Source: Arcticibacter pallidicorallinus (GTDB lineage Bacteria > Bacteroidota > Bacteroidia > Sphingobacteriales > Sphingobacteriaceae). Taken from it: a stretch of DNA of 64,000 nucleotides. Location: positions 372,001 through 436,000 of the forward strand of contig NZ_PVTH01000001.1 of the NCBI RefSeq assembly GCF_003002875.1. The letters run 5' to 3'. Each line of letters starts with the position of its first letter. Within the stretch, counting starts at the first letter, position 1. A program made the position numbers and the translations under genes. Positions 26,212-28,425 of the stretch are shown here, piece after piece. The notes beneath the pieces are model-generated. The model worked only from the letters and a program-made list of their open reading frames with translations, ran no database searches and was not told the DNA's origin.

Positions 26212-27402
26212 ATGAAGACAATTGATAATCTGAACTTCTCAGGAAAGAAGGCACTCATCCGCGTTGACTTTAACGTTCCTCTGGACAAGGACTTTAACAT
26301 TACTGATGATAACCGTATCCAGGGTGCCTTGCCTACGATTAAAAAAATTCTGGCTGATGGAGGTTCGGTGATACTGATGTCGCACCTCGGTCGTCCGAAA
26401 GAAGGTCCTACTGAAAAATATTCACTAAAGCATATTGTTAAGCATCTGTCGGAGGTTCTTAACACGGAAGTGCAATTTGCAGACGACTGCGTAGGTGCTC
26501 AGGCTGCTGAAAAAGCGGCTGCGTTAAAAGGCGGGGACGTTCTTTTGCTGGAAAACCTTCGTTTCTATAAAGAAGAAGAAAAGGGAGATGAAGCTTTTGC
26601 TGAAAAGTTGAGCAAGCTTGGCGATGTGTATGTTAACGACGCGTTCGGTACTGCACACAGAGCACATGCATCTACAGCTGTGATCGCAAAGTTCTTCGCT
26701 GATTCAAAGTACTTCGGTTACCTGATGGCTGGAGAGCTGGCAAATGCAGAAAAAGTGCTGAACAATCCGGAGCGTCCGTTTACAGCCATTATGGGTGGAG
26801 CGAAAGTTTCTGATAAAATTCTTTTGATTGAACGTCTTTTGGAAAAGGTTGATAACCTGTTAATCGGAGGTGGAATGGCCTATACGTTTGCTAAAGCAAA
26901 AGGCGGACAGATCGGAAATTCATTGGTAGAGGAAGATAAACTTGAGCTTGCCCTCAGCCTGATTGAAAAAGCTGAAGCCAAAGGCGTAAAGCTGATTTTG
27001 CCTACTGATTCGGTAATAGCCAATAAGTTTGCAGCTGACGCAGATACGGATGTTGCTCAGAATGATGATATCAAAGAAGGTTGGATGGGTCTGGATATCG
27101 GTCCGGATGCTATCCAGGTTTACAAACAAGTAGTTGCAGAATCGAAGACAATCCTTTGGAATGGCCCAATGGGTGTATTTGAAATGGAGAAGTTCGAAGC
27201 AGGAACAAAGGCTGTGGCCGAAGCTGTGGTAGAAGCAACAGAAAAGGGAGCATTTTCTCTGATAGGAGGGGGCGACTCAGCAGCAGCTGTTGCGAAATTC
27301 GGTTTTGAAGAAAAAGTTAGCTATGTATCAACAGGAGGCGGAGCTTTGCTGGAGTACATGGAAGGTAAAGAGTTACCTGGCGTTAAAGCCATTAACGAAT
27401 AA
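26212..27402 (+). CDS. pgk: Phosphoglycerate kinase
   Basis: The 396-residue protein has the usual length and motifs: RVDFNVPLD at the N terminus (substrate-binding Arg and Asp), SHLGRPK, the hinge around [13 protein letters not shown], and the C-terminal nucleotide loop GGGDSAAAV. It transfers phosphate from 1,3-bisphosphoglycerate to ADP in the cytoplasm. It is preceded by a GAPDH paralogue and followed by a strong terminator, making a two-gene glycolytic unit. Confidence 0.98.
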
Positions 27403-27423: not shown

Positions 27424-27454
27424 AACCGGCTCATTTAATGGGCCGGTTTTTTTT
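27424..27454 (+). terminator. Rho-independent terminator after pgk
   Basis: AACCGGCTCATT pairs with AATGGGCCGGTT (27424-27435 with 27437-27448), forming a GC-rich stem with a short loop, followed by a run of eight T on the plus strand. Confidence 0.9.
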
Positions 27455-27495
27455 GTGTTTAACCAGCCGTTGAGTAGTTATTCGCGAGCCGTTTA

Positions 27496-27677
27496 TCAGC
27501 TCTTGGTCAGTTAGTGATCAGCTAGTGCTTAGCTTAGGGATGTAACCAGAGTGTAGCCACCTTGCAGCCACAGTGAGGCCACGTTTTATTGGAAAAAGGT
27601 GGCCTCACTCTGGCCTCACTCTGGGATCACCCTGGCCTCAGACACTAGCAGACCACAGGCTGACCACTGCTTATCCT
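27496..27677. repeat. Degenerate 11-bp tandem repeat field with mirror-like arms
   Basis: In the left arm (27496-27583) similar 11-mers follow each other in strict register: TCAGCTCTTGG, TCAGTTAGTGA, TCAGCTAGTGC, TTAGCTTAGGG, ATGTAACCAGA, GTGTAGCCACC, TTGCAGCCACA, GTGAGGCCACG. After a 17-bp AT-rich spacer the right arm (27601-27677) again has period 11: GGCCTCACTCT twice, GGGATCACCCT, GGCCTCAGACA, CTAGCAGACCA, CAGGCTGACCA. The units next to the spacer are inverted: AGTGAGGCCAC at 27572-27582 is exactly complementary to 27599-27609. The period is not a multiple of three, so it does not encode protein repeats. It lies between the pgk terminator and mraZ. Confidence 0.75.
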
Positions 27678-27895
27678 CAGGTTTTTCAAGGCGGATTGAG
27701 AGTACGTTAAATGCAAGCTTTCGAAAACCTCCAAGTCCCGGGCGCTTTGGTCGATATCTTAAGCGAGCCGGAGCGATTTTGCGTTCATTTTTTCGTATTT
27801 CGATCAATTCGGGTACATTGACTAAGCGCTCATTTTCATAGAATTTGCCTTTTTTAGCTTAGAAAGCGACTATTATCTCTTGTTGAAAACTTTTT

Positions 27896-27921
27896 GTGGG
27901 GTTATGTGGTAGAAAGTGGTA
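27896..27921 (+). promoter_or_regulatory. MraZ operator: three direct repeats at 10-bp spacing
   Basis: GTGGG at 27896, GTGGT at 27906 and GTGGT at 27916 recur exactly every 10 bp, that is TGG(G/T)N boxes with 5-bp spacers. MraZ proteins are known to bind such boxes upstream of their own gene and to repress the dcw cluster. The last box ends 40 bp before the mraZ ATG. Confidence 0.75.
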
Positions 27922-27960: not shown

Positions 27961-28425
27961 ATGTCTCACTTCTTAGGCGAATTTGAATGTAAGCTCGATG
28001 CAAAGGGCCGACTGATGATACCAGCCGGACTCAGGAAGCAAATGCCTGAGGCTGAGAAGGAAGGGCTTGTCGTGAATCGCGGTTTCGAGAAGCATCTTGT
28101 GATTTATAGCCGGAAGGAATGGGACAAGATAATGGAAGACCTCAGCAAGCTTAATCAGTACGAAGAGAAGAACAGGCAGTTCATTCGGTACTTTACCAGG
28201 GGTGCGACTGAGCTTTCTCTGGACGCTGCGGGCAGGATATTGCTTCCAAAATCGCTTTTGGAGTATGCGGGTGCATCTTCGGAAGTGGTGCTGGCTTCAC
28301 AATTTAACAAAATTGAGCTTTGGTCAAAAGATGCATATGATGCACTGCTTGACAACGAACCCGATAACTTCTCCAAACTGGCAGAAGAGGTAATGGGTGG
28401 CGCAGGAAGGAGGGCTGATGTCTGA
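27961..28425 (+). CDS. mraZ: Transcriptional regulator MraZ
   Basis: ATG 27961 (MSHFLGEFE) is chosen; the in-frame start at 27916 lies in the operator. The 154-residue protein has two SpoVT/AbrB-like domains (about 5-50 and 77-120), each with the D-x-x-G-R motif (LDAKGRLMIP and LDAAGRILLP). MraZ forms ring-shaped oligomers, binds the repeats upstream of its gene and autoregulates the dcw cluster. It overlaps the start of rsmH by 8 bp. Confidence 0.96.
   Translation: MSHFLGEFECKLDAKGRLMIPAGLRKQMPEAEKEGLVVNRGFEKHLVIYSRKEWDKIMEDLSKLNQYEEKNRQFIRYFTRGATELSLDAAGRILLPKSLLEYAGASSEVVLASQFNKIELWSKDAYDALLDNEPDNFSKLAEEVMGGAGRRADV
28405..28414 (+). promoter_or_regulatory. Shine-Dalgarno sequence of rsmH
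   Basis: GGAAGGAGGG sits 3-4 bases before ATG 28418, inside the end of mraZ. Strong Shine-Dalgarno sequences are unusual in this phylum. Here it marks ATG 28418 rather than the upstream GTG 28397 as the start. Confidence 0.55.

Follow-up and report, generated by a model that had tools for sequence, protein, structure and literature searches.

What is the field of 11-bp repeats that lies between two genes of Arcticibacter pallidicorallinus, one of which we take to encode phosphoglycerate kinase (pgk) and the other of which is presumably mraZ, the first gene of the dcw cluster? An earlier note had described about 14 imperfect 11-mers at 27496–27677 of the window (the whole stretch of 64,000 nucleotides that was analysed) and had suggested a protein-binding or nucleoid-organising array, a recombinogenic repeat or a structured RNA. 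The strict register of the repeats holds, but the count does not: the array comprises sixteen 11-bp units at 27496–27685, which fall into two classes and form a dyad around a 14-nt spacer. The features of the locus are as follows:

26212–27402, + strand: open reading frame, upstream neighbour, presumed phosphoglycerate kinase gene (pgk)
27496–27539, no strand: outer left units, four of 11 bp, TCAGCTGGTGG-like and degenerate (from the unit layout and lag-11 identity)
27540–27583, no strand: inner left units, four of 11 bp, imperfect copies of GTGANGCCACN (from the unit layout and a model match)
27584–27597, no strand: central 14-nt spacer TTTTATTGGAAAAA, the dyad axis (from the unit layout)
27598–27641, no strand: inner right units, four of 11 bp, inverted, GTGGCCTCACT-like (from the unit layout and a model match)
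27642–27685, no strand: outer right units, four of 11 bp, the inverted outer motif, degenerate (from the unit layout)
27961–28425, + strand: open reading frame, downstream neighbour, presumed mraZ, first gene of the dcw cluster

Read from left to right, four outer and four inner units are followed by a spacer of the form T4-N6-A4, and then by four inner and four outer units in inverted orientation, so that the class of unit switches after the fourth unit on each side. The exact 11-bp inverted pair reported next to the spacer is confirmed as AGTGAGGCCAC/GTGGCCTCACT and is part of an inverted pair of 14 nt. A G.G mismatch beside the spacer, common to most copies of the array, marks the polarity of the element. 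Model R1, which was trained on a set that includes the window copy, matches 27540–27641. Within 27496–27677, identity at a lag of 11 bp is 0.53, compared with 0.20–0.25 at lags 5–10. The mean over lags 11, 22 and 33 is 0.413. A first-order Markov model of this segment was used to generate 5000 control sequences; their average is 0.252 (sd 0.021) and none reaches 0.413, so the suspected periodicity stands above every control. When 3191 segments of 182 bp covering the whole 64 kb are ranked by 11-bp periodicity, the eight best all overlap the array.

The array lies between pgk and mraZ. A terminator-like hairpin with a T run is found at 27424–27455, outside the array. Directly upstream of mraZ, and separate from the array, are three GTGG repeats with 10-bp spacing (27896–27919), which are probably MraZ boxes; GTGG repeats likewise precede mraZ in genomes G001–G005, among them A. 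eurypsychrophilus (G001), a closed relative (G002) and A. svalbardensis (G005). In the closed relative an array also lies upstream of mraZ, but behind a different upstream gene. The roughly 600 bp that precede mraZ in G003, G004 and A. svalbardensis show no array by eye, nor do the 224 bp visible in A. eurypsychrophilus. No tie of the array to the dcw cluster emerges from these comparisons.

Similar arrays do occur elsewhere. The A. pallidicorallinus genome (4.1 Mb; G000) carries 12 array places, that of the window and 11 others, with 21 strand-wise matches in all. These 12 arrays are built alike: on either side of a spacer stand four inner units (GTGANGCCACN), inverted in the second arm, and beyond them come degenerate outer units of a different motif (TCAGCTGGTGG). 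The spacer is usually TTTTnnnnnnAAAA, with the G.G mismatch beside it (C.C on the other strand). Single units are degenerate, most so in the array L027. In these arrays lag-11 identity is at chance level from unit 4 to unit 5 (0.17) and stands at 0.43–0.55 between units 5 and 8. The same sharp end after four inner units per arm was found in ten of ten groups tested, in which the identity of units 4 and 5 drops to 0.17–0.36. Outer units 5–8 are periodic in family A, in G003 and in a mixed group from other genera, but hardly so in family B and G085; beyond the outer units, unit-to-unit identity is near background.

Outside the genome, a pattern made of the spacer and first units matched six of 399 family genomes, all from the genus of A. 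pallidicorallinus, and its reversed control gave zero matches throughout. In a collection of named genomes it was found in Arcticibacter svalbardensis, A. eurypsychrophilus, Pararcticibacter amylolyticus, a Sphingobacteriales bin and Pedobacter steynii (17 stretches). A covariance model built from 35 copies, nearly all from six own-genus genomes, finds arrays in all six of these genomes and in 24 of 121 Sphingobacteriaceae genomes representing six genera, 18 of the 24 being outside the training genus. In a class-wide sample of 198 genomes, which includes a few members of the family, the model matched only the A. pallidicorallinus genome. Arrays at other loci and in other genera follow the same plan with different unit sequences, for example GTGAGTCCAGG as inner and TACCTGCTTCG as outer unit. 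More than one unit type can coexist in a genome, with two seen by eye in each of G001, G005 and G004, and three in G003. One array (L018, 3484–3867) lies just downstream of an RNase P RNA gene. In addition, a viral contig from IMG/VR (L202, 5893–5954) carries an 11-mer repeated 5.6 times in direct orientation, which reads GTGAYGCCACA on the other strand and resembles the family-A inner unit; this is probably chance convergence, because such a tandem array repeats one short unit.

How stable are these sites? Between A. svalbardensis and A. eurypsychrophilus, most arrays have stayed in place, and their sequence is better conserved than the flanks. In 11 orthologous pairs, the inner 59 bp are identical at 579/649 positions and units 3–4 at 403/484, compared with 881/1298 for the outer units and 1806/3069 for the flanks. 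At two loci the array type was switched in situ, at two others the array centre with its palindrome is deleted in A. svalbardensis, and two of the 11 pairs agree better at the spacer if it is inverted, which makes these candidate spacer inversions. The suggestion of a recombinogenic repeat is partly upheld by these type switches, palindrome losses and candidate inversions. The sites of the two species are old, and no clean insertion was seen between them in a tally of 11 same-type pairs, two type switches and two centre losses, which leaves aside L129, L130 and L137. A. pallidicorallinus shares few sites with other species, namely L027/L042 and the window site, the latter with the closed relative.

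Folded as RNA, the window array forms a hairpin of -89.8 kcal/mol (z=-7.07), and 11 bp corresponds to one turn of A-form RNA. A structured RNA, whether a bidirectional terminator or a dsRNA hairpin, would be in keeping with this strength and with the covariation between arms in inner units 1–2 (z=+4.6), as measured in a controlled run on 79 of 93 elements. Omitted from that run were L018, L133, L193, L089, L100, L108, L112–L115, L072, L169, L170 and L172, on grounds of odd spacers, another subfamily or single copies. The covariation is carried by family B (p 0.002–0.006) and is not significant in family A; when family-A elements are oriented by polarity, p values are 0.037, 0.035 and 0.058 for units 1–2, and 0.37, 0.89 and 0.998 for units 1–4. 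An earlier run, with mixed subfamilies and elements centred by their own pairing, gave z=+5.9 for unit 1, +7.7 for unit 2 and -3.9 for unit 4.

Other features of the arrays argue against RNA. Mispairs in units 1–2 of the 93 elements are divided almost equally between G.T (51) and A.C (53), with no wobble bias, and are mixed within elements (33 same-type vs 39 different-type pairs). Units 3–4 pair less than expected (z=-5.1, the same 79 of 93 elements), which may reflect polarity with one stronger arm. The intergenic spacers that hold arrays are co-directional in 42, divergent in 33 and convergent in 17 of the 92 cases classified, so that there is no fixed orientation to genes. Rfam gave no match at gathering score, either at the window array or at the arrays of 16 loci. 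Array cores overlap an open frame of at least 150 aa at four of 93 loci. Furthermore, the covariation is not specific to RNA, because template switching between inverted repeats, as described in PMC8794818 and PMC8604942, can yield the same result. A structured RNA is accordingly improbable despite the extreme hairpin energies, and this proposal of the earlier note is not borne out. The evidence instead favours a DNA element, in which the array is read by its sequence and the arms of the inner palindrome are kept alike in part by template switching. Since units 3–4 are conserved without pairing, the protein-binding array that had also been proposed gains ground as a sequence-read array, with the binding itself a plausible extension.

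Template switching could also lend symmetry to a functionless tandem repeat made by slippage. The covariation of the inner arms, the palindrome deletions and the candidate spacer inversions would all suit such an origin, yet each group tested has four inner units per arm, one plan is common to many loci in several genera, constraint extends to units 3–4, and arrays are linked to a gene, as described below. An origin by slippage alone is hardly credible against this background.

Among the neighbours of 93 arrays there is one recurrent gene. It encodes a protein of about 275–330 aa with the N-terminus MAIxDKxG..GKxG, from which the name MAI family is coined here, and it lies beside ten of the 93 arrays, in eight genomes and with several unit types. 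The linkage is clearest in the closed relative, where 11 of 16 model-detected arrays lie 165–439 bp upstream of a MAI gene, a twelfth precedes a truncated MAI gene, and the remaining four, which have no such gene, all belong to the family-A unit type. On the chromosome of this relative, ten of 15 arrays are MAI-linked, compared with at most two of 15 in 20000 random placements. A second contig of the same genome (470 kb; G002:C2, 209640) also carries a MAI gene with an array. Viewed from the gene, a palindrome of the array kind was seen by eye upstream of MAI at 12 of 16 evaluable loci in A. pallidicorallinus and 16 of 20 in the closed relative. The distance from array to gene is mostly one per paralogue group: 201–203 bp in A. 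pallidicorallinus, and 216, 274–279, 328–331 or 438 bp in the closed relative. Gene-linked groups of the latter show lag-11 identity of 0.38–0.43 vs 0.22–0.33 at lags 9, 10, 12 and 13, with the break after unit 4. In the A. pallidicorallinus paralogue group the palindrome is present but the phase hardly so (0.295 at lag 11; 0.28–0.29 at lags 10 and 12).

MAI copies are mostly full length, and purifying selection acts on them, with a median dN/dS of 0.08 in one paralogue group and 0.25 in another. Each of the six own-genus genomes has from 10 to at least 19 copies, and a MAI profile detects related proteins in 50 of the 121 family genomes. MAI genes are present in 23 of 24 genomes with arrays vs 27 of 97 others (Fisher p=6e-10), a comparison that presumes the same 121 genomes and ignores shared ancestry. 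In 27 of the 121 genomes there are MAI relatives and no array found by the model. No MAI relative was found on phages, plasmids or viral contigs, the first search using an alignment and the other two one MAI protein. Two A. pallidicorallinus contigs end inside MAI genes (L249 and L250; G000:C2 and G000:C8), which fits dispersed repeats, because assemblies break at such repeats. At six of the ten linked loci (L027 5076, L042 5048, L060, L100, L149 and L151) the MAI gene is followed by a gene for a DUF6266 protein. DUF6266 is named in no paper found in the open-access literature, and homology between it and MAI was considered and rejected (hhalign probability 1.2, E 0.045).

The neighbourhood also bears on whether the array centre is the core site of a tyrosine recombinase. 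Such cores have 11-bp arms around a 6-bp spacer, with arm-type sites in the flanks. In favour are the 11-6-11 geometry of the array centre and the better fit of an inverted spacer in two of 11 orthologue pairs. The spacer itself is, on the other hand, often palindromic (CCGG-like), and besides MAI and DUF6266 no neighbour protein occurs at more than four of 93 loci, so that a recombinase core is scarcely to be expected here.

Array and MAI gene have been copied together around the genome. For instance, two such units 1.2 Mb apart (L251 and L252) are 99.3% identical over 1512 bp. On the 5′ side the shared stretches extend 22–93 bp past the array centre, which takes them up to the outer edge of the array or stops short of it. 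On the other side they end no more than 3 bp from the stop codon in three of the four groups of the closed relative. Ends of this kind were found in L251/L252, in L264/L265 and in five of six comparisons of the L258 group, the sixth involving a truncated copy. Elsewhere the end lies 304 bp past the stop codon (L254/L255), 80 bp before it (L254/L257) or 9–128 bp before it (A. pallidicorallinus). Neither terminal inverted repeats nor a target-site duplication were seen by eye at the unit ends in L251/L252 and the L258 group, and no empty site for the whole array-plus-gene unit was found.

Where does the window copy stand in this scheme? The sole family-A array with a MAI gene in A. pallidicorallinus is L027 (G000:C8:16610; its gene, MAI-A, is at G000:C8:16808), and no MAI gene was found less than about 4 kb away from the remaining 11 arrays, that of the window included. 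These 11 orphans are 73–76% identical to the L027 array vs 40–46% to the other gene-linked type. Since L027 is the only MAI-linked array of family A in the genome and resembles the orphans more than the other gene-linked type does, the window array belongs to the L027 subfamily as one of its orphans. One gene-linked array per set, the rest being orphans, was found in six genome-subfamily groups (G000A, G001A, G002A, G004A, G004B and G005B). No gene-linked array was found for family B of A. eurypsychrophilus, and the gene-linked array of family A in A. svalbardensis has lost its centre. At one locus both of these species have the array, and the segment that holds the MAI gene is found in A. svalbardensis but not in A. 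eurypsychrophilus; loss of the gene may thus be another source of orphans.

What kind of protein is MAI? None of ten proteins matched Pfam; for six of six, nothing in NCBIfam was above cut-off and the best PHROGs match had E 0.19; and the best relative sought by sequence in the PDB had E 0.42. No nuclease or transposase domain could be recognised with these four libraries. These results bear on whether the arrays are a REP-RAYT or IS200/IS605-type system. Palindromes scattered through a genome, some next to a cognate gene and others orphaned, follow the logic of REPtrons (PMC3733652). The defining Y1 transposase (PF01797) was, however, found in none of eight genomes, compared with matches in five of 14 controls, and no conserved HUH motif was seen in MAI by eye; such a system is very improbable here.

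The architecture of the arrays, their copy number and conservation, their linkage to and co-occurrence with MAI genes, and the joint copying of the two are matters of observation, and action of the array at the level of DNA is supported. From these the window feature is probably, if by a modest degree of confidence, an orphan non-coding copy, MITE- or REP-like, of an undescribed element that consists of an array and a MAI gene and that spread with the help of MAI. Among the genomes examined, this element was detected in Sphingobacteriaceae only. Binding by MAI, its role as the mobilising enzyme and the spread of orphans through it are what we infer. MAI protomers would occupy one 11-bp unit after another, roughly one protomer for each helical turn and on one face of the DNA. 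The complex so built would span both arms, with the dyad in the middle, and would promote the copying of the array, either alone or together with its gene; the window copy would be a MITE/REP-like derivative of that process.

Alternatively, the arrays may have no present mobility and serve regulation or nucleoid organisation, with MAI or another protein bending or wrapping the DNA, controlling its own gene where the two are linked, and using orphans as architectural sites. Such a role would agree with the constraint on sequence at orthologous sites, the single distance to the MAI start codon in each paralogue group, the T4-N6-A4 centre with its helical phasing, the stability of sites between A. 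eurypsychrophilus and A. svalbardensis, and the 15 chromosomal sites of the closed relative, which are not clustered (Rayleigh p about 0.83). It is harder to reconcile with the few sites common to more distant species, the disregard of gene orientation among the 92 classified spacers, and the near identity of array-plus-gene copies at distant loci. We regard a purely regulatory or architectural role as less likely than mobility, though it is the main rival.

The mobile reading can be taken a step further, to a claim that is possible and falls short of probable: that the arrays represent a new class of prokaryotic mobile element. Its unit would have one gene, for an enzyme of an undescribed family, and a single 5′ end formed by a phased palindromic array; the array alone would spread as orphans, such as the one before mraZ, and the specificities of array and protein would coevolve. 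The exact repeat architecture, together with a protein family that has no known domain, points to an unrecognised DNA-binding, and perhaps DNA-mobilising, system. Subfamilies with different units, several of which have their own gene, amount to a natural experiment on how the specificity of protein and array changes.

How does the system compare with those already described? It works like REP-RAYT or a MITE and fails the defining tests that were run, and neither the array nor MAI matches a known family in the libraries used; the earlier remark that the repeats match no nameable class stands, in that no class tested fits. Among the open-access papers listed, judged by title and opening of the abstract, none dealt with such arrays, and in an Arcticibacter genome comparison (PMC5435697) the term “palindromic repeat” occurs twice, both times about CRISPR.

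Inverted arms of short tandem units are known from eukaryotic foldback elements. The arms here are similar, but the arrays are bacterial, about 190 bp long, fixed at four inner units per arm and made of different units. BIMEs and nucleoid-protein sites of enterobacteria are dispersed intergenic palindromes proposed to shape the chromosome; the present arrays are likewise dispersed intergenic palindromes, but differ in architecture and are linked to a specific gene family. MITEs, like the window copy, are short non-coding relatives of a gene-bearing element. Unlike MITEs, the arrays have no terminal inverted repeats or target duplication by eye, and their palindrome sits at one (5′) end of the gene-bearing unit. 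Two features that define MITEs and insertion sequences, terminal inverted repeats (sought in L251/L252 and the L258 group) and a recognisable transposase, were not found. In REPtrons, which combine REP with RAYT, the palindrome is 20–40 bp, compared with a phased 11-bp array of about 190 bp here, and the partner gene differs in that MAI has no Y1 match. A GTAG or CGTC tetranucleotide beside a short hairpin is a further mark of REP-RAYT systems. Finally, parC of plasmid R1 is also an array of 11-bp repeats read by an oligomer, its ParR needing at least two such repeats (PMC9426499). In parC-like centromeres the partner is a ParR-type DNA-binding protein, together with ParM; the putative partner of the present arrays, MAI, has no Pfam match. 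The phased 11-bp arrangement is shared with the arrays described here, which differ from parC in having inverted arms around a dyad and many chromosomal sites per genome.
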